A stretch of DNA of 64,000 nt from Methylocella silvestris. GTDB lineage: Bacteria; Pseudomonadota; Alphaproteobacteria; Rhizobiales; Beijerinckiaceae. The stretch lies in NCBI RefSeq assembly GCF_002891535.1, contig NZ_PDZR01000001.1, positions 310,001 through 374,000 on the forward strand, written 5' to 3'. Position 1 is the stretch's first letter. Each line of letters opens with the position of its first letter. The notes under the pieces are model-generated. The model did no database searches, had not been told where the DNA came from, and saw only the letters and a program-made list of their open reading frames with translations. The translations under genes and the position numbers were made by a program. Positions 5,485 through 64,000 of this stretch are shown piece after piece.

Positions 5485-6225
5485 CTAGATGAAACTGATC
5501 TGATCGCCTTCCAGCCTGACGCAGGAGAGCCGGCCCGTGGCATAGGCTCCCGTATCGACATTGATTCGGTTGCGGCGAACCTCCGGCTCCATCACCGGCG
5601 TGTGGCCGTGGACGATGACTTTTTCGAAGGACTCTTCGCAGGAGAGGAATTCTTCCCGGATCCAGAGCAGGTCCTCCTCGCTCTGGCGCGCGAGCGGCGC
5701 GCCCGGACGGATTCCCGCATGGGCGAAAAAATAGTCGCCGCAGGCGAAAGAAGCGGGCAAAGAGCTGAAAAAATGCGAATGGCTTTTTGGCAGAACTCTC
5801 GCGAACTCCCGCGCAAGCTCCTCCTCCTCTTCGGCGGTCGGAGAAAAGCTCGGCGCAAGGCCATAGGACAAAAGCGTCGAGAGGCCGCCATATTGTCCCC
5901 AGGATCTGAGGATCGGCGGATTGCGCAGAAACTCGAGAACATAGATCTCGTGATTGCCCTTGAGGCAGACGACGCTCTGGTGTCTCGCGCGCTCGATAAG
6001 TTTGGTCACGACCTCAGCCGAATTCGATCCGCGATCAATATAATCGCCAAGGAAAATCTGCAGGGGATGGGCGATCGGATGACGCGCCAGATCCGCGTCG
6101 ATTCGCAAAAAAACCTGATCGAGCAGGTCGGCGCGGCCATGAATATCGCCAATCGCGTATATTCGGACGCCGGCGGGAAGAGTCGGCGTCGCCGGGGCGG
6201 CTCCGAATAGACGCGGTTTCCACAT
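5485..6225 (-). CDS. PPP-family metallophosphoesterase (serine/threonine phosphatase type)
   Basis: A 246-residue protein containing the full set of PPP signatures: GDIHGR (about residue 27), GDYIDRG (about 64), GNHE (about 91), then 'FAHAGIRPG' and 'VHGHTP', which supply the metal ligands and phosphate-binding residues. Bacterial members such as PrpA/PrpB remove phosphate from proteins or act on small phosphoesters; the substrate here is unknown. The ATG at 6225 has no clear Shine-Dalgarno sequence. Neighbours give no functional hint. Confidence 0.88.
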   Translation of the reverse strand: MWKPRLFGAAPATPTLPAGVRIYAIGDIHGRADLLDQVFLRIDADLARHPIAHPLQIFLGDYIDRGSNSAEVVTKLIERARHQSVVCLKGNHEIYVLEFLRNPPILRSWGQYGGLSTLLSYGLAPSFSPTAEEEEELAREFARVLPKSHSHFFSSLPASFACGDYFFAHAGIRPGAPLARQSEEDLLWIREEFLSCEESFEKVIVHGHTPVMEPEVRRNRINVDTGAYATGRLSCVRLEGDQISFI

Positions 6226-53151: not shown

Positions 53152-53227
53152 GGGGCTGTAGCTCAGATGGGAGAGCGCTGCAATCGCACTGCAGAGGTCA
53201 GGGGTTCGATTCCCCTCAGCTCCACCA
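53152..53227 (+). tRNA. tRNA-Ala (anticodon CGC)
   Basis: A 76-nt cloverleaf with encoded CCA. The acceptor stem GGGGCTG pairs with CAGCTCC (one G-U), the anticodon stem CTGCA/TGCAG encloses loop ATCGCAC (anticodon CGC, reading GCG), and the T arm is AGGGGTTCGATTCCCCT. The prophage-like island begins just after its 3' end, a common integration target. Confidence 0.97.
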
Positions 53228-53363
53228 GAAAATCACATTATCATATTGAAATGTAATGGATATTCGCGTTAGAGCGTGAGCTTACCCCAACTATTACCCC
53301 TACGTTGGTTTGGACGATCGCGGGCCGGCGCTCTCACTTTTTTGAGGAAGGCTACCTCAGCGG

Positions 53364-54131
53364 ATGCCACTTATGATCGATCCCGATCCGTATGAAGATG
53401 TCATCCTCCGCTATGAGCTGACCGCCTTGTTCCTTCTCGGCGACTTGCGACTTGCGAACGGGGATCTTGCCTTAACCAAAGATGGTGATCTTCAAATAGG
53501 CAGTCCCTCATACAACGCGATGTTCCGGCTTGTGCAAGCTTGGCGCCTCAATGCCCCCGCAATGCGGTTGATGTTCGATACCGTGCATGAGCTTCGCCGT
53601 ACGAAGCCTGAGCGCGAGAAGGAGTTAGATGCAATTTTTGGCAGGGGTCCGGCGAACGGCCGATTCCTTGAATCGGACGATGTTTCACTGTACCACATGG
53701 TAAATGATGCCATTGGCGCGTTGGAAGTCAGCCGAGAGGCTCTTGCCGGTAGCTTGATGATCGTGATCAGCTCCCTTTTAGACCGATTCAGGAATGATCT
53801 CGATGCGAGCTTAAAGAGATGGAACTTGGGCAATCCTAGTTTCGGTGGCTATTCGGCAGGACAGGTCGTTACCGCTGCGGCAAATAGCTTTCGCCATGCG
53901 GACGAGTGGAAAAAAGCGCAATTCTCCAAAAAAGATGCCACTAAAGAGCAACGGCGATCGATGGATGTCATTCGATCGGCTCGCGGCTTGGCGGACGGCC
54001 CTCAAGCCTATTATGCCTCCGACATCTCGGAAGCTGTTCTGGATCTTCTTAGCGAGGGAGATTTCGAGCGATTGGCGAAAGTCATTCTGAGCTTTGCGAA
54101 TGGCATTGCTGAAGAAGTCAAATTGACTTGA
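53364..54131 (+). CDS. Island protein of unknown function
   Basis: 255 residues (ATG at 53364; an ATG at 53373 is possible). The sequence is helical and soluble. The most distinctive stretch is 'VVTAAANSFRHADEWKKAQF'; an RH-x-x-EW motif recurs in uncharacterised accessory proteins, and I cannot assign it to a named domain. It is the first gene after the tRNA and is transcribed away from it, towards the convergent phage genes. Position suggests cargo rather than virion function. Confidence 0.6.
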   Translation: MPLMIDPDPYEDVILRYELTALFLLGDLRLANGDLALTKDGDLQIGSPSYNAMFRLVQAWRLNAPAMRLMFDTVHELRRTKPEREKELDAIFGRGPANGRFLESDDVSLYHMVNDAIGALEVSREALAGSLMIVISSLLDRFRNDLDASLKRWNLGNPSFGGYSAGQVVTAAANSFRHADEWKKAQFSKKDATKEQRRSMDVIRSARGLADGPQAYYASDISEAVLDLLSEGDFERLAKVILSFANGIAEEVKLT

Positions 54132-54167
54132 CCGCGTCGGAGCTTTTTGAGGGAGCGGATAATCCGC

Positions 54168-54497
54168 TCAAACGGCCGCGCCCGTAAGGTCGCGCCACGT
54201 CCATCCATCCCAGATGATCAGCTTTCCGATCGTCTGGTCAAAGACGCTCTCTCCAAATTCCTCGGGTCGCGGTGCTCCGTTCGGCTGGGCGGCCTGCCGC
54301 GCCGGGCGCGTGGCAGAGGTCACCACTTGCGCACCGATGAGCCATCCCGCCGCGCTGAGGGCCTGAGCGACGCTGCGCGGCACGGTCAGGGTGCTTCCCG
54401 GCTGGCAGCTAAATACGACGCCGCCAACGCTCTGCGAATTCCGCAGGCCGTTGCCCGGCGGCAAGACGATAAAAATATCGGAGTTTTCCGGTGTCAT
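54168..54497 (-). CDS. Small phage protein, unknown
   Basis: 109 residues with a Shine-Dalgarno AGAGGA 8 bases before the ATG. The C terminus 'IGKLIIWDGWTWRDLTGAAV' resembles the 'fG-x-I-x-W-dG-x-W-x-D' ends of some phage structural or fibre-associated proteins. Located 25 bases after terL on the same strand, it probably belongs to the same transcript. Confidence 0.55.
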   Translation of the reverse strand: MTPENSDIFIVLPPGNGLRNSQSVGGVVFSCQPGSTLTVPRSVAQALSAAGWLIGAQVVTSATRPARQAAQPNGAPRPEEFGESVFDQTIGKLIIWDGWTWRDLTGAAV

Positions 54498-54522
54498 ATT
54501 CTTTGTCCTCTTGAATAACTGA

Positions 54523-55791
54523 TTAAAAAAGTTCGCCTCTGCGGGCGAGTTCGTAGAGTCCCCAGTTCGGCATTTGCGGCTGGATCATGAGATCGGTGAT
54601 TGCCCAGACCATCGCATCAAGGCGATCTGGCGAGCCGGCGACGCCCGGAGCGAATGAGGACATCTGGTCTTCGAGCGCGGGAAATGCGCCGACCAAATGC
54701 ACGCGATTTTGCTCGAATAGCGCCGATACAGGCTCCGCGCGCGTGATTTTTCCACGCGAGGCGTGAACCGGGCGGTAACTTACGTTAGGGTCGACGGCGC
54801 GGACTGTCGTCTCGACCATCGCCCCGCCTTGATTGACTTCCGCGACGATGCGATCAGCCCGATGCTCGTGATAGAGCGCCACGGCGATCCGCGCCCATTC
54901 GACTGGCGCGTATCTTCCGGAAGCGTCGCGAAGAATGTAGCCTTTTCCGTCAACGCCAAGGCCGGCGACAACGATTCCCGTCTCATCTGAATCCTCGTTG
55001 TTCGAAATGGCTGGATCGATCGCGACGACAACACGGGTCATTTCCGGTACGGCGTCGACGGAGATCCGCGCGCGCTCTATCAGGTCGCGATTCCACAGCG
55101 CTCCGGGCGTATCTTCCAAAAGCTCGGCGTCGAGTTCCTGTCGGCCGAGTCGCGTCCCTTCGTATTTTTTGATGATCGAATTGACGAACGATGGCGCGAG
55201 GTTGTCCCGGTTTTCATGAGTCGATCCGCGACTCACAGCAACGTCTTGACCTTCTCGGGAAAGTATATCCTTCAAAATCTTGAGCGGGCGAGGCGTGGTC
55301 GAAATAACAAGTCTGGGCCTCTTTCCGAGACGTAGCCCCATCATCATCATGTCGTAGGTTTCCTGAAGATTCGACCACGCGCAAATCTCATCCGCCCATA
55401 TTAAATCGTGAGCCGGTCCCCTGAGCCGATTGGGTTCTTCGGCGCTGAATGTCATTGCAATCGCGCCATTCGTATAGGTCAAAAGGCGTTTGCTGGGCTC
55501 GTATTGAGGCCTTGACCATTCCGGGCCGATCGATAACAGGCCGGACTCTCCAGCGACCATGACATCTCGGGTGTCACTCGCGGTGCTACCAACAAGCCCA
55601 ACACGCCGAGCCCTGCCGCTCTCGATCTCGGCGCTGACGAATTCAGCGGCAGCGCGGGTCTTACCAAACCCGCGCCCGGCGATAATCGCCCAAATGCTCC
55701 AATCACCATCCGGCGGAAGTTGGTTGGGTCGCGCCTGCGTCAACCACGAATTTTCTAGCGCATCCGCGATCTTATTAAACATTTCCGACAT
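54523..55791 (-). CDS. Phage terminase large subunit
   Basis: 422 residues from the ATG at 55791, which overlaps the small-subunit stop by one base (TGATG). The ATPase part has Walker A 'IIAGRGFGKTRAAAEF' and Walker B 'HDLIWADEICAW' followed by the coupling motif 'LVISTTPRP'. The nuclease part (about residues 255-400) has acidic residues in 'VVVAIDPAISNNEDSDETGI' and 'SPDRLDAMVWAITDLM'. It drives DNA into proheads and cuts concatemers. It belongs to the compact terminase type also found in gene transfer agents. Confidence 0.92.
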   Translation of the reverse strand: MSEMFNKIADALENSWLTQARPNQLPPDGDWSIWAIIAGRGFGKTRAAAEFVSAEIESGRARRVGLVGSTASDTRDVMVAGESGLLSIGPEWSRPQYEPSKRLLTYTNGAIAMTFSAEEPNRLRGPAHDLIWADEICAWSNLQETYDMMMMGLRLGKRPRLVISTTPRPLKILKDILSREGQDVAVSRGSTHENRDNLAPSFVNSIIKKYEGTRLGRQELDAELLEDTPGALWNRDLIERARISVDAVPEMTRVVVAIDPAISNNEDSDETGIVVAGLGVDGKGYILRDASGRYAPVEWARIAVALYHEHRADRIVAEVNQGGAMVETTVRAVDPNVSYRPVHASRGKITRAEPVSALFEQNRVHLVGAFPALEDQMSSFAPGVAGSPDRLDAMVWAITDLMIQPQMPNWGLYELARRGELF

Positions 55792-56375
55792 CACGATTCC
55801 TCCGGCGGAATATGCTCGATTGTTTTCATTGCCGGATCGATAGGTTTGGCGGACTCAAAATCGCGAAGCATGCGAATTACGTCCGCGCGCGCCGCCGGAT
55901 GCGGAGCCAAGGCTTTGATTAAAGCGCCCTGTAATCTCGCGAAGTCTGGCGAAGTGAATAGATTGAAGTTGTTGATTGTGGTTGAATTTGAAAATTCCCG
56001 GATCTCCCCGGTTATCTTTCCGATCTGGCGGAGTGTTTCAAGCAAACGTCCAGCGATAACGCCAACGGCATTTGCGTTGTTGGTTTCAGACGCCCTGACG
56101 AATTGATCTGTCAATACCGTTCGAACGAGTCCAAAGTAGTCAATTAAGCTATGTTCTTCTTCTCTTGCCTTGTCCAAGAGCTGTTGCATTTTTAATGGGC
56201 CAGCGAGATACTTTGCCTTCGTCTCGTCATCGATGTGTAGAGTCCAATGCCGATGAATCGCGTCGCGAGAGACATTGAATCGTTTCGCCAGCTCGTCCAA
56301 CGACGCGCCGCCAGCGCGCAGAACTTCGATCCTACGCCGCTCGGGATGTATGCAAATTGAACATGACTTGGCCAC
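55791..56375 (-). CDS. Phage terminase small subunit-like protein
   Basis: 194 residues from a GTG at 56375 (VAKSCSICIHPERRRIE). The frame can be read back to a GTG at 56459, but that part overlaps hairpin structures and looks non-coding. A CSIC-x-HP motif and a helix-turn-helix ('LDELAKRFNVSRDAIHRHWT') near the N terminus are typical of DNA-binding small terminase or HTH phage proteins. It is one base-overlapped with terL. Recognition of the packaging site is its likely role. Confidence 0.72.
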   Translation of the reverse strand: MAKSCSICIHPERRRIEVLRAGGASLDELAKRFNVSRDAIHRHWTLHIDDETKAKYLAGPLKMQQLLDKAREEEHSLIDYFGLVRTVLTDQFVRASETNNANAVGVIAGRLLETLRQIGKITGEIREFSNSTTINNFNLFTSPDFARLQGALIKALAPHPAARADVIRMLRDFESAKPIDPAMKTIEHIPPEES

Positions 56376-56436
56376 AGTAATTTCTTTCAAAATGAAAGCG
56401 CGGCGACGCCAATCGTAAAACGCCGCCGCGCCTATC

Positions 56437-56659
56437 GCCCCTCTGCCTCCGCGTTCCACACTTTCCAGAGGGGCAAACTGTCCGGCTCGCGACGAACAGG
56501 GAATTTCGCGAGCCGGATTGATCGAGTCGAAATGCCGGGATCGACTCGACCTTTTGAGCGGCCCTTAAAATGACGGAAAACCGGGCCGCTCAATTCTCGC
56601 CTGTGTGCCGCAGACGAATGCTCGCGGCGGGAAATGCTTTCCATTCATTTCCCGCCGCG
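56437..56659. other. Array of five consecutive perfect inverted repeats
   Basis: Five perfect stem-loops follow one another: arms 56437-56445/56466-56474 (9 bp, loop 20), 56481-56492/56506-56517 (12 bp, loop 13), 56522-56530/56541-56549 (9 bp, loop 10), 56554-56564/56583-56593 (11 bp, loop 18) and 56623-56636/56646-56659 (14 bp, loop 9). An imperfect sixth (56398-56431) and a small 6-bp one (56384-56398) continue towards the terS start. The arms differ in sequence and no T-tracts follow, so these are not ordinary terminators. The stretch fills the gap between the head-fusion gene and terS. Confidence 0.85.
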
Positions 56660-56704
56660 TCGCCATCCGCGCATAGGCACGCAGACGGCGGAACTTTAAT
56701 GTCT

Positions 56705-58330
56705 TTAATGTCGTGTCAGAGGATTGAGCTGCGCCGCACGCATGAGACACATAACTCTTTCGCTTTCCGGCATTGCGTTGAGCGCGCGCACAAGATCATC
56801 GTCGCTCAATTTTGGAATGGAAGCCTCAATAGTTGATCCGGCGGCGTCGGTCGTATTGTCAACCGCGCGTCTTGCAAAACTATTTAACGCGCACTTTGCA
56901 GGCATCGGTTCGGATAACCATTCAACCATTCGGCGTTCAACAGCATCGTCGACTTTTTGAGGTTTCGACATTCTCTCCAATATCGCCAGAACGCTTCGCC
57001 GCATTTCTTCCGTTTCCGAAATCACCGCTGCAATTTTCCGATCAAATTCGCTGTCAGAACGCCGGGCGATCCGTCCGACATTGGACGCAGGAACCGTAAG
57101 AACGCTACATCGGCAGTTTGTGTGCGCGCCGGGCGCCATGTCCCCGCTGGAAAACGGCTGATCAGCCGGGATTGGTCCCTGCGCTGCGTTGTCAGCACAT
57201 GCCGCGCAACACCCGCTGTCGGCCGTCATCCACGCTTTCATAAAATGGCCGGCGCCCGACTCGTTCACAACCTGAATTGTTTGAACGATCGCGGAACCCT
57301 TGGCTCGATTGGACTCGGTGACGCCGATACCTTTTGCCCGCGAAGGCGAGAAGGCGAATGCGGACCTTATCAGTTCTTCCAATGTGGCGGCGGCGACGCC
57401 TGTCGCGACGCCGGCCAATCCAGATTGAATCGTTTCCCCGATCATTGACCGCGTCGACGACGTGATCGCGTTTTCAGCCGAGGGATCGGGCGCAAGCTCG
57501 CCGCCAACGGTGAATTTTTGCCCTGTCAGTTGCGCAGCGCGTTCCCGTGCGGCGTCGCTCACGGCTTCGGCGAGCGCGGCGTTATCGGCAGCCGGCAAGA
57601 TGACATTAAGGCGGCCCAGCGCTTCCTTTGCGGCGCGAACGGCGTTTTGCGCAAGCAGGTCGCCGATCTGCGGCGCGAGGCCGCGTAGTGGTGCGAGATC
57701 AAGACCGTTCGCAACCGCTGCGGCGAGGCTGGCGGCGTCTTCCACCGTCACCACGTCGCCGCCGGCCAAGAGCAGTCGTGCAGACGATTCAATCGCGCCG
57801 GCGGCAATGATGGCCAGCGCTCCCGCGATCAAATCGGCGAGCGGATTGTCTTCCGCATCGGGTGTGGTTTCGGCCTCGGCAGTCGAGTCACTATCGGCAC
57901 TGCGCCAGAGGTCAAAAGTCGCGCCGGGATCTGCCGGCCGATCGACAAGAGAGATTTCTGTAATGATCATCCCGCGAACAATCGCCCTGTCGGCGTCATC
58001 CCGCTTCGTCACCTTAGCGCCAATGGAAAAGCCTTTGTAAACGCCCTCCTTGACCTTCGACCAAGCATCGTCGTCTTGCACATAGGCGCCAAGGTAGGCG
58101 CCCTTTTCGTCCAGCTCGATGCTCCGTGCGACGCCGACAGCGCTGGGCTGATGCATCTCGCGAATGTTGCCCCATTTTTTGTATTCCGCGAAAGCATCAT
58201 CGAGAGCTTCCCGCGCGATGACATTCCCGTCGAGGGCGGGTTCATCCGTCGAGGCATAGCCATAGACCATGCGGGCATCAGTATCGATGCGGCGTAGTTC
58301 GCCATAGAACTTCGTGCTGGCGGCACTCAT
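56705..58330 (-). CDS. Prohead protease / head morphogenesis (MuF-like) fusion
   Basis: 541 residues from the ATG at 58330, overlapping the upstream stop by 4 bases. Residues 1-165 resemble XkdF/HK97-type phage serine proteases ('VYGYASTDEPALDGNVIARE', 'KGFSIGAKVTKRDD', 'ITEISLVDRPADPGATFDLW'). After an Ala-rich helical middle, residues about 370-420 carry the C-x2-C...H-x-NCRC metal-like motif of SPP1 gp7/Mu F head proteins ('SGCCAACADNAAQGPIPADQ', 'GDMAPGAHTNCRCSVLTVPA'). Normally these are separate genes. The last 120 residues are unassigned. Confidence 0.75.
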   Translation of the reverse strand: MSAASTKFYGELRRIDTDARMVYGYASTDEPALDGNVIAREALDDAFAEYKKWGNIREMHQPSAVGVARSIELDEKGAYLGAYVQDDDAWSKVKEGVYKGFSIGAKVTKRDDADRAIVRGMIITEISLVDRPADPGATFDLWRSADSDSTAEAETTPDAEDNPLADLIAGALAIIAAGAIESSARLLLAGGDVVTVEDAASLAAAVANGLDLAPLRGLAPQIGDLLAQNAVRAAKEALGRLNVILPAADNAALAEAVSDAARERAAQLTGQKFTVGGELAPDPSAENAITSSTRSMIGETIQSGLAGVATGVAAATLEELIRSAFAFSPSRAKGIGVTESNRAKGSAIVQTIQVVNESGAGHFMKAWMTADSGCCAACADNAAQGPIPADQPFSSGDMAPGAHTNCRCSVLTVPASNVGRIARRSDSEFDRKIAAVISETEEMRRSVLAILERMSKPQKVDDAVERRMVEWLSEPMPAKCALNSFARRAVDNTTDAAGSTIEASIPKLSDDDLVRALNAMPESERVMCLMRAAQLNPLTRH

Positions 58331-59019
58331 CGGGCGGCCCCACGCGTCACGGCTTCGATCATGTCTCGCCACGTTGAAACATCCCCAACCGGCTCAGGAG
58401 TGGCGACCGATTTAATGCGTTTGATCAGCACTTCCCCGAGCTGGAAAAATGGAACAGCACTTTCGTGGTCTGACGCGCCAATCTCTTTTCCCTGTTCAAA
58501 ACAATAACTAATCGCTCCTTTGGCGCGCGAGATCGCGGCGTCAAAGGCTGCGACCTTCGCAACAAGATCAGCACAGGCGGCCTCAAAATTTGACGCGATG
58601 ACAGGCCAGATGGCGGCGTGGACATCGCGATTAGCTTCTGCGTAGGGCGTCATCAATGCCGTTTGCTGCGCTTGAAATGACCGCTGAGCTACATCCGCAG
58701 CAGCAGCGATGTCACGGGCCTCCTTCAGCTCCACGGCAAGACGCGCCCGCTCTACGCCCCGGTGAGGCGGTTCGGACGCACTCTTCGACTCCGCCCAGCC
58801 TTGCAGGGCTGTGGCCTCTTCGGCGGCCAGCGCATCCAGCTTTGCTTCGATGCTAGCTGGCATGTGGATGCGCGGCTCAAGCCTCGCGCGGCATTCTTCC
58901 AACCTGCACATCTCGGCATGAATCGCGTCTCTCGCGGCAACTTTGTCGCGGAGCACCGCAGTAAGCTCAGTGGAATTAAATTCAAGTATGTTGGAATTAT
59001 ATTCGAATGGTGCGGTCAT
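58327..59019 (-). CDS. Coiled-coil phage protein of unknown function
   Basis: 230 residues, mostly helical with heptad-like stretches (about residues 15-170), rich in Ala and Glu, no membrane segment. It is the first gene of the minus-strand phage operon and overlaps the protease/head fusion by 4 bases (ATGA). Position suggests a scaffold or head-associated role, but nothing in the sequence proves it. Confidence 0.6.
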   Translation of the reverse strand: MTAPFEYNSNILEFNSTELTAVLRDKVAARDAIHAEMCRLEECRARLEPRIHMPASIEAKLDALAAEEATALQGWAESKSASEPPHRGVERARLAVELKEARDIAAAADVAQRSFQAQQTALMTPYAEANRDVHAAIWPVIASNFEAACADLVAKVAAFDAAISRAKGAISYCFEQGKEIGASDHESAVPFFQLGEVLIKRIKSVATPEPVGDVSTWRDMIEAVTRGAAR

Positions 59020-59321
59020 TTTGATCTTAGCTCGTAAGTTATAGTGCCGGCATTAGCTCTATATAATACCAATAATTCGGTGCGTCATGAGCAGTTCCAT
59101 CGCGATTGCTGCAACGGCCGTCGCGATATGGCGTAACCGCGCTCTCGCCTAACTAGTTTTTTGGTGCCGGTGCAGAGCCTATCGCCCAAGGCGTCTCAAA
59201 TGGGTAAACCCCTACGACACACCGGCGCGAGACACATTTGGCGTCTTAATAGGGTTGACTTTCACATTTTGAGACGGCATAAAGAGAGGGTCTAGAGGCT
59301 ATTGAGACGTTTGAGGGCGAC
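59020..59321 (+). promoter_or_regulatory. Resolvase promoter with repeated motif, candidate recombination/operator sites
   Basis: No gene. A -35 TTGACT (59255-59260) and -10 CATAAA (59278-59283) with 17-base spacing precede the resolvase. Four copies of a motif near CGTCTCAAATG surround it: 59192-59202 (+), 59242-59252 (+, CGTCTTAATAG), 59265-59276 (-) and 59299-59309 (-). Copies two and three form an inverted pair 35 bp across that covers the promoter. This layout suits resolvase binding for autoregulation or a res site. Confidence 0.6.
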
Positions 59322-59873
59322 ATGGCGACTTACGGATACGCGCGGGTTTCGACGACAGACCAAGACCTCGCCTTGCAAAAGAGCGCGCTCAAGGCCGCCG
59401 GATGCACGGTCATCCGGGCAGAGAAGGTGACAGGAACGAAGCTCGCCGGCCGCACAGAGCTGCGCACGCTTCTCGACTTCATCCGCGCTGGCGACGTTCT
59501 CATAGTCACAAGGATCGACCGTCTGGCGCGCTCTATCGGCGATCTGGCGGGCATCGTGCGCGAGCTGGAGAGCAAGGGCGCCGCGCTCAAGGCGACGGAA
59601 CAGCCGATCGACACAAGCACTGCTGCCGGCAAGGCGTTCCTCGGCATGCTTGGCGTGTTCGCCGAGTTCGAAACTAATATCCGTAAGGAGCGCCAGCTTG
59701 AAGGAATCGCCAAAGCGAAGGCTGAGGGCGTCTATAAGGGCCGCAAGCCGTCGATCGACGTGGCGGCTGTCCGACGGCTGCGCGACGTCGATCGGCTCGG
59801 CCCGACAGAGATTGCCGAGCGCCTTGGCATCGGTCGCGCCAGCGTCTATCGGGTATTGGCGACAAATCCTTGA
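59322..59873 (+). CDS. Serine recombinase (resolvase/invertase family)
   Basis: 183 residues with the catalytic serine in 'YGYARVSTTDQDLALQKSAL', arginines in 'VTRIDRLARSIGDLAGIV', the helix E region 'GMLGVFAEFETNIRKERQLE' and a C-terminal HTH ('LGPTEIAERLGIGRASVYRV'). Small serine recombinases resolve cointegrates or invert segments at short paired sites. The motif cluster directly upstream is a candidate site. A clear terminator follows the gene. Confidence 0.94.
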   Translation: MATYGYARVSTTDQDLALQKSALKAAGCTVIRAEKVTGTKLAGRTELRTLLDFIRAGDVLIVTRIDRLARSIGDLAGIVRELESKGAALKATEQPIDTSTAAGKAFLGMLGVFAEFETNIRKERQLEGIAKAKAEGVYKGRKPSIDVAAVRRLRDVDRLGPTEIAERLGIGRASVYRVLATNP

Positions 59874-59891
59874 CGGCGCGAGGCCGCAAAC

Positions 59892-59915
59892 GCCGCCCTC
59901 GCCGGGCGGCTTTTT
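59892..59915 (+). terminator. Intrinsic terminator of the resolvase gene
   Basis: A 7-bp GC stem (GCCGCCC at 59892-59898, GGGCGGC at 59904-59910, loop TCGCC) followed at once by TTTTT, 18 bases after the stop codon. Confidence 0.92.
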
Positions 59916-60017
59916 CAATTCCACAATCTGTAATATAAATACAGATATCCGAATAATATGGAAAAAATATCAAGTTGACGGCGAGTTATTTGCTTATATT
60001 ATTGACTCAATCGAGCA

Positions 60018-60320
60018 ATGGAGACTGACATGGCGGTACATGAGAGCATTGATGACAAAATTAAACGCTTGAGTTTTGACTTCGTGAACGCAAATGCTTG
60101 GTCTGGTGACTGCAATCCCGGTGCACTCGTTAATTTTGCGAACGGGGCGGCAGTTATACTGCATCTTGCGCTCTCAAACGAAGAGCGCGGCCAGCTCATA
60201 AAGAAACACGGCAGCGTTGAAGCGCTCGCCGAATGGGCGTTTTGCGCCGACACTCCAGAAGCCGACGCGCTACAACGGGCCGTATTCATCGGTACGTTTG
60301 AGGCCAATTCGAAGTATTGA
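60018..60320 (+). CDS. Small island protein, unknown
   Basis: 100 residues (ATG at 60018; ATG at 60030 possible). 'SFDFVNANAWSGDCNPGALV' and 'AEWAFCADTPEADALQRAVF' are distinctive but match no family I know. AT-rich upstream region and a strong terminator downstream indicate a monocistronic gene. Confidence 0.5.
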   Translation: METDMAVHESIDDKIKRLSFDFVNANAWSGDCNPGALVNFANGAAVILHLALSNEERGQLIKKHGSVEALAEWAFCADTPEADALQRAVFIGTFEANSKY

Positions 60321-60369
60321 GCTGCACTCGGCAGCATGTTAAGAAAAAAGACTGAAATTGAATTAAATC

Positions 60370-60398
60370 AAGAGGATAGATTTTTCTATCCTCTTTTT
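60370..60398 (+). terminator. Intrinsic terminator
   Basis: An 11-bp stem (AAGAGGATAGA at 60370-60380, TCTATCCTCTT at 60385-60395) with a TTTT loop and a trailing T-run to 60398, 50 bases after the small gene ending at 60320. Confidence 0.92.
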
Positions 60399-60520
60399 GT
60401 CGTTTTCGAGCAATGCCGCAATGCGGGTCGGACGATGTCGCGCGTGTGGAAGCTGCGGAACGGCATTTTGGACAATACTAAGTTTAAATTCAGTTCAGAC
60501 GGCTTCAGCGCTGGGATTCT

Positions 60521-60778
60521 TTAGTCCCCGTGCTTCCCAATTCTATAGCTATCCGGGTGCATTTCGCTGACTATATAGACCGCGCGGGAAGCGTAGGTCG
60601 GATACGTCGCAGTAATCAGCGGGAGGCCGATTGCTTCGAAAACTCTCGGCTTGAAAAGCTTTTTCTGTTCGAATGCCTCGTACAAATCGTAACCGAACGT
60701 GATTCCAACTTCGACTGGATGAGAAAGGAGTTCCTCATCCAATTTTCGTTTTACGACCTCGAACTCTTCCTCAGTCAT
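60521..60778 (-). CDS. Small acidic island protein, unknown
   Basis: 85 residues beginning MTEEEFEVVKRKLDEELL. 'ITFGYDLYEAFEQKKLFKPR' and 'YASRAVYIVSEMHPDSYRIG' give it a plausible folded core. No family is recognised. It is isolated, convergent with the preceding gene. Confidence 0.5.
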   Translation of the reverse strand: MTEEEFEVVKRKLDEELLSHPVEVGITFGYDLYEAFEQKKLFKPRVFEAIGLPLITATYPTYASRAVYIVSEMHPDSYRIGKHGD

Positions 60779-61078
60779 CTAAGCTCCTTGCTTTGCGCCA
60801 AGTATAGGGTGGGAGGCCTGCGCGCGGTGCAGGCCAACCCCCTCAAATTATTAACTGAAATATTACCTCTTTTCGCGCTCTTTTCCTCCTTCGCTGTCAT
60901 TTTAATTCGGTCGTGATTAATCGGCCGAAAAAGAGGGGATCAGGGCGGAAATGGAAGATAGGCGCTGCCCCCGGTGAGGGGCCACGCCGCCGGCCGCCGC
61001 GATTAAAAAGGAATTCCCAAGATTCCGATCTTGTCGATGGTCCTCTATTGGGTTGAAGAATAGTCGGAAAATCTCCGC
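60779..61078. other. Gap without supported gene
   Basis: Three hundred bases between two minus-strand genes. No frame has convincing coding character; there are no repeats or RNA-like structures that I recognise. It should hold the promoter of the small gene ending at 60521. Confidence 0.4.
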
Positions 61079-61483
61079 CTATTTATTGAAAGCTATATCG
61101 AGGCATTTCTCGCCCGAGAACTCGCCAGAAGCCAGCCGCCCGATTAGCGTTAACGTTGCGACCTCTTCGCAAAAGGCCTTTTGCTCGGCCAGATTCAGAT
61201 TTTCAATGTTGATGGATTTGAGAATGCCAAGGCGATGCTCAGCAATCGCGCCTATCGTGTGAAGTCCGGTTTCTTCCGCATAAATTAACTCGGATGGGGA
61301 AACTTTTCGGCGCACCTTGCTCAAGGCTTTTACCGCCTCCTTCACATATTTCTCATGTTGGCTTTTCAACATCGAAGCATTCATTTCAGCAGCGCTTTCA
61401 AGCGTTCGCCTTGATCGGTTTTGAACAGGAGCGGCTTTCACTTTGCCGTTTGTCGTTAGGCCTAAAGGCTTCGGCTCATCCAT
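61079..61483 (-). CDS. Island protein of unknown function
   Basis: 134 residues, basic N terminus ('LTTNGKVKAAPVQNRSRRTL') followed by helices ('HEKYVKEAVKALSKVRRKVS', 'NLNLAEQKAFCEEVATLTLI'). No family is recognised. Its promoter side faces 250 AT-rich bases containing small palindromes (for example CATACCGTATG near 61660), shared with the divergent gene at 61736. Confidence 0.5.
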   Translation of the reverse strand: MDEPKPLGLTTNGKVKAAPVQNRSRRTLESAAEMNASMLKSQHEKYVKEAVKALSKVRRKVSPSELIYAEETGLHTIGAIAEHRLGILKSINIENLNLAEQKAFCEEVATLTLIGRLASGEFSGEKCLDIAFNK

Positions 61484-61735
61484 CGTTTTTCCTCAGCAAT
61501 TAATTTCGGCTTTTCCCCGAATGATTGACCTCGCAGACACGCCTTCCAGCCTGAAGCGCTGCCGTTCTGAATGATCTCGCGTCTGGCGATTGAAGTCAAC
61601 TTCATAAATCCTAAAAACCTTGTAATATCAAACATATGATATGCATATGGCATACCGTATGTCTCAAATGACCATGGGAAAGGCTGGACAAAACCCTAAT
61701 GCCATTATAGAACAAACAAGGAACATTGGGGGCGA

Positions 61736-62023
61736 ATGGCGAGGCGAATGCGACCGGAAATTCCAAGTGATCCGGCCGCATGCGTTCGCGTACTCTGGGA
61801 ATGTCGTGACGCTACGATTCGGTTGTCGATGCAGATCCCAATCGGGAGCAACGTCGACAAGCTCGCTCACGGGGTCTTGACGGCGATTGATGCACTCGCC
61901 GCCGAACTGACTGGCGATAGGGAATATTTCTGGAGTGTTGGCGCTGTCGCAACGGAAGGCCAGCAGCGAGTGATTGAAGAAAAGGCGGCGCGGGAGCGGG
62001 GAGAATTGCGATGGAAAAAGTAA
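61736..62023 (+). CDS. Small island protein, unknown
   Basis: 95 residues (ATG at 61736, with an ATG at 61748 also possible). 'IPIGSNVDKLAHGVLTAIDA' and 'ELTGDREYFWSVGAVATEGQ' look like real protein, but I know no family. It overlaps the frame that starts at 61974. Confidence 0.45.
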   Translation: MARRMRPEIPSDPAACVRVLWECRDATIRLSMQIPIGSNVDKLAHGVLTAIDALAAELTGDREYFWSVGAVATEGQQRVIEEKAARERGELRWKK

Positions 62024-62432
62024 CGAGCGCCGGCGAGCAGAAGATTGTTCCGTCTATCGAGTCAAGTTCATCCGCCATATCGTCGGTCGCGCCGATCCGG
62101 AAGTACTTCACGTCACACATGGCATTTTCCCTGATCTCTACGGTGCGATCGACGAGGGAAATCTTCTATTCGGCACGTCCAATGAGGTGCGCGGCGCGGG
62201 GGGATTTTGCGTTGTGAAGGGCGGTGCCGGGATTGTCGCTCATCGCTTTCGCACATATGAGGTCGAGCGCCATGGCGAAGGCCAAATATTACGTCGCGCC
62301 CCATTCGTCACGACGGATGATGGCGACTTAGTCGCCGGAGAAGCGAAAGAGCTTCCGACGGTTGGCGCGCTGTGCGTAGGACGCGACGCTTGGCGATGCC
62401 AGCGGCCGGTGCCGCCGCATTTTCCCGCATAA
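61974..62432 (+). CDS. Possible island protein, start uncertain
   Basis: The frame from a TTG at 61974 encodes 152 residues. From about residue 26 it reads like a folded protein ('YRVKFIRHIVGRADPEVLHV', 'GIFPDLYGAIDEGNLLFGTS', 'EAKELPTVGALCVGRDAW'), but no good start codon lies just before that point. An ATG at 62011 with an in-frame 'MEKVTSAGEQK' is in the +1 frame, so the gene may use a weak start or carry a frameshift. Confidence 0.35.
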   Translation: MKKRRRGSGENCDGKSNERRRAEDCSVYRVKFIRHIVGRADPEVLHVTHGIFPDLYGAIDEGNLLFGTSNEVRGAGGFCVVKGGAGIVAHRFRTYEVERHGEGQILRRAPFVTTDDGDLVAGEAKELPTVGALCVGRDAWRCQRPVPPHFPA

Positions 62433-62625
62433 GTGACCCAGTATTAGGCGAGTTTGAGGGCGCGGTTGAGACGCTTCGCTTGGGGGCGTGCCGGACGTGG
62501 ACACCTTCCTAAGAGGGCCGTGAGATAGAACCAATTCATTTACAGACTCATTCCGCGGTAGTGAGCGAACGTTTTGCACTCTATCCACCACATTTTTTGT
62601 TCTGTACTTGTTTGCAGGGAACGAA

Positions 62626-62642
62626 TCTGACAATCTGTCAGA
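62626..62642. promoter_or_regulatory. Palindrome ahead of the HTH-methyltransferase gene, candidate operator
   Basis: A perfect 7-bp inverted repeat with 3-base spacer (TCTGACAATCTGTCAGA) ends 12 bases before the Shine-Dalgarno GGAGG of the methyltransferase. Methyltransferases with N-terminal HTH domains, such as M.SsoII, are known to repress their own genes through a palindrome in the promoter. Confidence 0.5.
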
Positions 62643-62661
62643 AAGACTCCCCGGAGGTTTT

Positions 62662-63924
62662 GTGACAGAATTTTCATCTCTCCGGCAAAAGAGCGGACTT
62701 TCCGTCCCGGAGGCAGCAGCCAAGCTAGGATACACTGAACGCGAGGCTTATCGCTGGGAGCGTGGCGAGGTTAAACCGCGTCGCGCAATCCTCGATCTTC
62801 TACGCGCACTGAAACCTCATTGTGAGGACCGTAGCACGCCACCCGCCTTCAGCTTCATTGACCTTTTCGCGGGTATCGGTGGGTTGCGGCGCGGATTCGA
62901 GGCCATCGGCGGCGAATGTGTCTTTACGTGTGAGTGGGACCGTTATTCGCGAGAAACCTATAGCGCAAATTTTCCTAACGACGGGCATTCGATAGCCGGC
63001 GACATTCGTGAGGTGAAGGAAGCGGATGTGCCAGAGCATGATGTTTTGCTTGCTGGCTTCCCGTGCCAGCCCTTCTCTATTGCCGGCGTATCGAAAAAGA
63101 ATGCTCTCAACCGACCACACGGCTTCGCATGCGAGGCACAGGGCACTCTGTTTTTTGAGGCCGCACGCATTATTCGCCATCATAGACCGAAGGCGTTTGT
63201 GCTGGAGAACGTTAAGAATCTTGTAAATCACGATCGCGGACGCACGTTCAGAGTGATTCACGATGTTTTGACCGAGGAACTAGGATATCACGTTGACTAT
63301 CGCGTCATCGACGCAAAAGCTTTCTTGCCACAGCATCGAGAACGTATTTTTATCGTTGGCTTCGCTGATGAACCGGATTTCAGCTTCGAAACGCTCACGC
63401 TCCCAGACCCCTTAAAGGGGCCGAGGTTGCAGACGATTCTTCACCCCGGCGACGGCACCGAAAAGCCGGACAAACACTACACAACCGGCAAAGACTGCAA
63501 GGTATCCGACAAATACACGCTGTCAGTTCATCTCTGGACCTATCTTCAAAATTACGCGGAGAAACACCGTCTTGCTGGCAATGGATTCGGCTTTGGCCTC
63601 TTCGGTCCTGACGACGTAGCCCGAACGCTTTCAGCGCGTTATTACAAGGACGGATCGGAAATCCTCATTCGGCAGGCCCACAAGCCACCGCGCCGGCTTA
63701 CGCCGCGCGAATGCGCTCGCCTCATGGGATTTGATGCGCCGGGTCAAAACGACTTTCTTATCCCCGTTTCGGATACACAAGCCTACAAGCAGTTCGGCAA
63801 CTCTGTGGCCGTTCCGGCCGTTACTGCAGTAGCGCGTCACATGGAGCCTTATATCCGCAAGGCCGTTGAGCAACACGTTCAGAGAAACGAGCAAGCGCCG
63901 AAAAGGCAGAGAGCCCGTGGTTGA
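62662..63924 (+). CDS. DNA (cytosine-5-)-methyltransferase with N-terminal HTH
   Basis: 420 residues from the GTG at 62662, fixed by GGAGG 4 bases upstream. Residues 1-55 form an XRE-like HTH ('[20 protein letters not shown]', '[15 protein letters not shown]'). The m5C methyltransferase motifs follow in order: I '[20 protein letters not shown]', IV '[14 protein letters not shown]' (catalytic Cys), VI '[10 protein letters not shown]', VIII '[11 protein letters not shown]', IX '[14 protein letters not shown]' and X '[13 protein letters not shown]'. The target-recognition region lies about residues 245-350. The downstream vsr overlaps it, as in restriction-modification or Dcm-type units. Confidence 0.93.
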
Positions 63925-64000
63925 CACCGTCGACAGCATCACCCGAAGCAGGATGATGGCGGGTATCCGTAGCACTAATACCCGGCCGGAACTTGCGATC
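63917..64000 (+). CDS. Very short patch repair endonuclease Vsr, N-terminal fragment
   Basis: 28 codons to the window edge from a GTG at 63917 that overlaps the methyltransferase stop by 8 bases. '[17 protein letters not shown]' matches the Vsr N-terminal signature (RxxxMxxIRxxxTxPE). Vsr nicks at T:G mismatches created by deamination of 5-methylcytosine, so it protects the sites methylated by its neighbour. A cognate restriction enzyme, if present, is outside the window. Confidence 0.85.

Follow-up and report, generated by a model that had tools for sequence, protein, structure and literature searches.

Why should the gap between a phage head gene and terS, the gene for a small terminase subunit, be packed with inverted repeats, no two of which are alike? 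The question arises in a 64,000-nt stretch of the Methylocella silvestris genome (the window), in which the first-pass annotation had placed a dense array of stems at 56384-56659. The five perfect stems that it described were all recovered, at 56437/56474 (9 bp), 56481/56517 (12 bp), 56522/56549 (9 bp), 56554/56593 (11 bp) and 56623/56659 (14 bp). Dense stems do occupy that interval, but the array proved larger, running from 56396 to 56690, through the addition of minus-strand stems with G-U pairs at 56661-56690 (12 bp), 56597-56617 (7 bp) and 56396-56433 (15 bp). In the RNA fold of the minus strand, the array consists of eight consecutive stem-loops, hairpins a to h, with stems of 7-15 bp. 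The linkers from a to h measure 1, 5, 3, 2, 2, 4 and 1 nt, and 277 of the 295 nt lie inside hairpins.

Hairpin a (56661-56690), seen in the fold, has 12 bp, three of them G-U, a 6-nt loop and a mean outer-pair probability of 0.71. Both the stem search and the fold gave hairpin b (56623-56659), a perfect 14-bp stem with a 9-nt loop and a probability of 0.98. The weakest of the eight is hairpin c (56597-56617), a 7-bp stem with one G-U pair that was found by folding and has an outer-pair probability of 0.49. The next four hairpins were again found by stem search and fold alike: d (56554-56593) is a perfect 11-bp stem with an 18-nt loop and f (56481-56517) a perfect 12-bp stem with a 13-nt loop, while e (56520-56551) and g (56435-56476) each comprise 11 bp, being nine perfect pairs plus an extension with one G-U pair, around loops of 10 and 20 nt. 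Last comes hairpin h (56396-56433), given by the fold and by a terminator scan, with 15 bp (four G-U), an 8-nt loop and a U-rich stretch directly behind it. A weak, A-U-rich outer stem of 7 bp (56693-56699 with 56387-56393) may close the eight hairpins into a multiloop spanning 56387-56699; it appears in the minimum-energy structure only and is of low confidence. The array fold contains no other long-range helix, pseudoknots being outside the reach of the method. The first-pass annotation had suggested that TGTGTGCC/GGCACGCA could close a branched structure, and this stem is indeed present in the plus-strand minimum-energy fold, but its probability on the minus strand is about 0.01 and its bases lie there in two separate hairpins. 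Its statement that the arms all differ was borne out: the best local score between hairpins was 10 and they share no common sequence. A resolvase res site or an iteron array was rejected, as no site sequence is repeated between hairpins, and the short ORFs that cross the array were judged by eye to be spurious.

We investigated the possibility that the stems had arisen by chance. The minimum free energy of 56380-56705 was -179.7 kcal/mol on the minus strand, compared to -124.4 ± 5.3 kcal/mol for shuffled sequences (z -10.5), and -147.1 kcal/mol on the plus strand (z -7.1). None of 100 shuffles was as good on either strand, so that the comparison proposed in the first-pass annotation came out in its favour. 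The gap holds five perfect stems of at least 9 bp, whereas 2,000 dinucleotide shuffles gave 0.06 on average and never more than 2. The background in the same genome was obtained from 93 stretches (1,903,000 of 4,284,692 bases, about 24 kb of them counted twice, through L062, which is part of the window, and the overlap of L063 with L198, leaving about 1.88 Mb distinct), which contained 594 perfect hairpins of at least 9 bp, or 0.094 per 300 nt. Nowhere else in these 1.88 Mb did four perfect stems of at least 8 bp fall within 300 nt. They yielded one cluster of three perfect 9-bp stems, formed by hairpins beside genes (L084:16890-17029), and, under looser rules, two places where four G-U-permissive stems of at least 10 bp share 230 nt (L067:13251-13417 and L207:2935-3162). 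When 326-nt segments of the genome were folded on both strands, at 5,883 of 6,563 planned positions, the segment centred on the array ranked first of 11,766 stranded segments, at -6.9 SD after GC correction. The grid segment over the array came second at -5.7 SD, and the next one elsewhere reached -5.4 SD (L097) in what looks by eye like a repeat region. Host repeats with paired hairpins (GATCACATG...CATGTGATC), at L097:4000-4600 and L203:9100-9480, are among the next most structured segments of the genome.

A wider comparison covered 357 array-free records (4.28 Mb, copies and overlaps counted in). Per 300 nt, the array has five perfect stems of 9 bp, six of 8 bp and seven G-U-permissive stems of 9 bp on the minus strand (five on the plus strand), counts that no 300-nt interval of these records equalled. 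Perfect 9-bp stems reached a maximum of four (L212), with three in at least seven other records. The maximum was four for perfect 8-bp stems, with L103, L211, L212, L220, L265, L283, L293 and L297 among the loci listed, and five for G-U-permissive 9-bp stems on one strand, with L103, L108, L211, L212, L227, L288, L293 and L334 among those listed. In a set of 213 loci totalling 2.34 Mb, among them stretches of the same genome and two array copies, three perfect 8-bp stems fell within 160 nt in L211, L253, L254, L265, L283, L293, L297 and L323, and four G-U-permissive 9-bp stems fell within 200 nt in 12 loci besides the two array copies. The array is thus extreme, though other places dense in hairpins exist. 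The shuffles, the genome fold ranking and the hairpin counts in genome and records led us to reject chance; as an RNA structure the array is both real and extreme, with no homolog found in the collections searched.

Both strands can fold, and we asked which of them the pairing favours. The minus-strand fold contains ten G-U pairs across the eight stems. Hairpins a, e, g and h are 3.7-9.8 kcal/mol more stable on the minus than on the plus strand, a and h each losing about 10 kcal/mol when read on the plus strand. Part of this bias is a product of the method, because folding a chosen strand selects for G-U pairs; a strand-neutral walk gave three G-U pairs against no A-C mismatch, a weak difference (one-sided 0.125). 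The G-U pairs and the difference in energy favour an RNA of the coding strand rather than a DNA cruciform.

The array fills the gap in which it lies, beginning 14 nt after the stop codon of a protease/MuF-like gene and ending 20 nt before the proposed start of terS, and the two codons that flank it belong to genes of the same (minus) strand. The upstream gene (56705-58372, 555 aa), defined by its ORF and profile matches, begins as a prohead protease at its N-terminus (PHROG 21715, E 4.6e-37; E 1e-4 with the HK97 protease model, short of the cut-off) and contains a MuF-like region (E 3e-4 with Pfam, short of the gathering score); portions of it have further matches to PHROGs annotated as portal and as major head protein. 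Downstream, terS (55791-56375, 194 aa, proposed start GTG at 56375) was assigned by its place and by relatives that adjoin terL, and terL itself (54523-55794, 423 aa) is clear from profile matches; both frames are open. The order protease - terS - terL is unusual among the phages and prophages examined, which showed terL - portal - head gene(s) - capsid where annotated and portal - protease - capsid where named from sequence. Since the fold is stronger on the coding strand and is confined to the gap ahead of terS, the structured phage RNA or folded terminase leader proposed in the first-pass annotation is the best fit of its suggestions, but the structure is not kept in relatives (see below).

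These genes belong to an island of about 15.5 kb at tRNA-Ala(CGC), which covers 53214-64000 of the window and continues into L063 (1-4722). Its boundaries are marked by 15-nt copies of the tRNA-Ala 3' end, at 53214-53228 and at 68707-68721 (window numbering continued into L063), and it carries a tyrosine integrase at its right end, a cytosine methylase with an EcoRII-type endonuclease (restriction-modification) and a serine recombinase gene (59322-59873). Few phage genes were recognised in it; among the island ORFs scanned (PHROGs on ten window proteins, small ORFs in part), none was identified as a separate gene for a portal, capsid or tail protein. This content suggests a satellite-like or remnant prophage.

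The hairpin next to terS had been described as weak. Folded alone it is instead the most stable of the eight, at -27.8 kcal/mol on the minus strand and -18.0 kcal/mol on the plus strand. The first-pass annotation had also noted that no T-tracts follow the stems, which is wrong for hairpin h in the minus direction: after its ...CGCTT comes TCATTTTGAA, a U-rich tail in which the tract is interrupted. The terminator scan listed this hairpin for its 15 pairs, its GC-rich stem and the U-tract at once after it. The scan is weak evidence, having reported eight sites in 3.7 kb, two of them hairpin h, against 4.5 ± 2.1 in shuffles; it listed none of the other seven hairpins with such a U-rich tail. The view that the array is not a row of terminators consequently stands for seven hairpins and not clearly for the eighth, which by its letters resembles an intrinsic terminator and is a candidate for one. 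No sigma70-like site was found by scan on the minus strand between 55700 and 59400 (other promoter types lie outside that scan), which is in keeping with expression from upstream; scans for promoters and for terminators are both weak tools. In the predicted ensemble, the ribosome region of terS is partly open and the start codon is paired (unpaired probability about 0.1).

Had the array been a conserved part of this terminase family, homologous terS upstream regions should keep the pairing. In none of 11 distinct terS relatives, 37-51% identical, is the gap ahead of terS occupied by a hairpin array (L003, L004, L005/L077, L006/L078, L009/L076, L073, L074, L075, L079, L080 and L103; partial matches of about 50 residues in L007, L008, L010 and L104-L106 were left out of the count, as was L081). 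This absence counts against the array as a pac/cos site or a leader conserved in the family, both of which the first-pass annotation had considered, and means either a recent origin or sparse sampling. The gene before terS in several relatives is a recombinase or another directly joined ORF; serine recombinase-like ORFs stand just before terS at L073:5366-5917 and L074:4794-5786. A terL at L006:2081-3532 has a long insertion that is intein-like by eye, with an HNH-like ORF in another frame. Inverted repeats at L211:11927-12094 (L103:3103-3270), beside ATPase-like and recombinase ORFs and upstream of a terS relative, were rejected as a second array: their arms share the motif GTTCGCA, and they lie about 1 kb upstream of terS, behind the recombinase ORF.

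The other flank was approached through 80 viral loci with relatives of the protease. An in-frame stop was located in 75 (the exceptions being L135, L268, L271, L272 and L312); it fell inside the match in 14 of these, so that the gap was safely placed in 61. Three perfect stems of at least 8 bp occurred in the next 330 nt in 5 of the 75 (L253, L254, L283, L293 and L318), and none had more. The folds of six gaps, selected by their length or energy, were also inspected by eye, and two of these (L299 and L264) contain long nested palindromes. One relative in 75 had a comparable hairpin run: at L293:6860-7215, about seven hairpins with different arms lie directly behind a prohead-protease gene, beside two opposite-strand ORFs. 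Its z-scores were -7.6 on the minus and -5.2 on the plus strand, this being the sole one of the five loci that was compared with shuffles, and it is a possible analogue of the array. The nested palindromes at L299:6793-7250 and L264:7441-7740, behind the prohead-protease genes of other viral contigs, look like mobile repeats.

Searches for the array itself were carried out at several levels. Within its own genome, a DNA search matched the locus alone at E <= 0.001. Neither 56300-56800 against 50,697 phage records (blastn) nor 54000-62500 against 72,556 plasmid records (megablast) gave a match. Among 298 genomes of the family, 128 (own genome counted) had a match at E <= 0.1, in short GC-rich pieces; the best foreign one, to hairpin h, had E 1.3e-5 with 80% identity over 51 nt. 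Seven of the matches were aligned, and those to hairpin f in G661 and G345 share nearly the same flanks, which were read as a host gene. All of these short, GC-rich matches were taken, by judgement, as chance. A covariance model of four hairpins with one sequence given twice (R1), run with strict filters and low sensitivity on 159 genomes, returned its own locus and a single weak match, at E 0.009, within what was read as an SppA-like ORF; in 51 loci the same low-sensitivity model found nothing below E 0.06. Rfam recognised RNase P and tRNA alone in the whole window and, up to E 5 over the array, a single match to SAM_alpha (13.6 bits against a gathering score of 36, E 1.8). A known RNA family was rejected, since no Rfam score reached the gathering threshold. 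Literature searches for a published array of this form gave nothing useful, which is not proof of absence.

The above findings lead us to propose as the most likely reading, tentatively and with somewhat less than even confidence, that the array is an intercistronic element of the mRNA: by partial termination or by processing of the head-gene transcript, it would set the level of terminase expression. Its place between same-strand genes and its stronger fold on the coding strand count for this proposal, as do the terminator-like hairpin h and the open frames of terS and terL: a stable stem-loop structure stands between same-strand genes of what we infer to be one operon. In our model, the head-protease/MuF gene, terS and terL would be carried on one transcript, and the eight local hairpins would form in turn as polymerase leaves the protease gene. 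Hairpin h, whose U-rich tail comes right ahead of the ribosome site of terS, would release some polymerases, mark a processing point, or both, while the close packing of the hairpins would shield the upstream message, since RNases and Rho would find hardly any unpaired RNA. The outcome would be less terminase than head protein from a single transcript. There is precedent in a cellulosome operon, where stem-loops between the genes adjust subunit ratios through selective processing and stabilization of the RNA (as described in the cited part of PMC4423207), and in E. coli operons reshaped by protective structures (PMC5927463, in the portion cited). Against the proposal, eight hairpins far exceed the need; none of the 11 terS relatives has the array and no homolog was found; the terS start codon is paired in the modelled ensemble; and the strand bias is in part methodological. 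If the array does control terminase dose, here would be a compact island whose stoichiometry is written in RNA structure alone, eight hairpins in a single gap.

The nearest alternative is a separate stable noncoding RNA of the element, of the phage or satellite type, processed from the operon or transcribed apart and with a role like that of other abundant phage and satellite RNAs. A compact, nearly fully paired fold of 295 nt that ends in a terminator-like hairpin would suit such a molecule, and abundant noncoding RNAs, most without a known role in the sections cited, exist in satellites and phages (PMC7567579, PMC12286853). We nevertheless consider it rather unlikely, given that the minus strand shows no promoter-like site, Rfam no match, the fold no long-range helix beyond the weak outer stem, and the searches no homolog. 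It is likewise doubtful that the array has no present function. On that view the gap would be a junction left by rearrangement of a remnant prophage, and the hairpins and a terminator would have built up there, or been created by template switching, and survived by chance. The unusual gene order, the few recognisable phage genes and the absence from terS relatives are all compatible with such a history, but unless selection keeps them, the perfect 9-14 bp arms of five hairpins should erode, the frames on either side are open, and the genome stretches scanned hold no equal cluster.

A DNA-level site, with cruciforms or single-strand hairpins bound by terminase, a recombinase or a replication protein (pac, res or origin), would account for the many palindromes directly before terS in an island that has a serine recombinase gene. 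It is improbable in view of arms that offer no repeated protein site, of hairpins a and h, which rely on the G-U pairs of one strand, and of relatives of the same TerS family that do without the array. Rho needs room on unpaired RNA to load. With linkers of at most 5 nt there is little such room, and the sole role of the array could be that of a Rho- and ribosome-proof spacer that lets polymerase cross about 330 untranslated bases without polarity; this we regard as very improbable, as a shorter gap would serve equally and the last hairpin is terminator-like. A bolder thought, and a long shot, is that the array is the first member seen of a packaging-associated class of multi-hairpin RNAs, carried by small islands of phage origin. 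Made from the terminase operon, such a dedicated RNA would act in packaging or capsid assembly by binding terminase or the prohead, and not only in cis on expression. Were the array to function as an independent RNA, it would be of a rare kind, a structured RNA connected with the packaging of DNA. Whether it controls dose or works as an RNA in its own right, it stands out as an extreme: no other sampled segment of its genome is as structured, and Rfam has no match for it.

Several known systems bear comparison with the array. The intergenic region of filamentous phages has five different hairpins and acts as single-stranded DNA; it resembles the array in its several adjacent hairpins with different arms, but differs in that the pairing of the array favours RNA and that no such replication gene was recognised among the proteins scanned. 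The put RNAs of phage HK022, two hairpins in the early leaders that act on transcription, are likewise neighbouring hairpins in a phage mRNA, two in number where the array has eight. Hairpin h shares with intrinsic terminators and attenuators a GC-rich stem and a U-rich tail, here before terS, unlike the other seven hairpins, which the scan did not list with such a tail. The GOLLD and ROOL RNAs, as far as the cited sections of PMC12286853 describe them, are also large, highly structured RNAs of phage-derived regions, often near tRNA islands, and the present island lies at a tRNA gene. Unlike the array, they form covariation-defined families, ROOL with several pseudoknots and GOLLD often longer than 800 nt, and the Rfam search, in which their profiles are included according to the same sections, gave no match of either to the array. 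In the cellulosome-type system of selective RNA processing and stabilization, again following the cited part of PMC4423207, several genes are each followed by one stem-loop, whereas here a single gap holds eight and processing is putative. The array is like that system in placing stable stem-loops between same-strand genes of one complex, and there the number of stem-loops per cluster varies by species, from two to eight.
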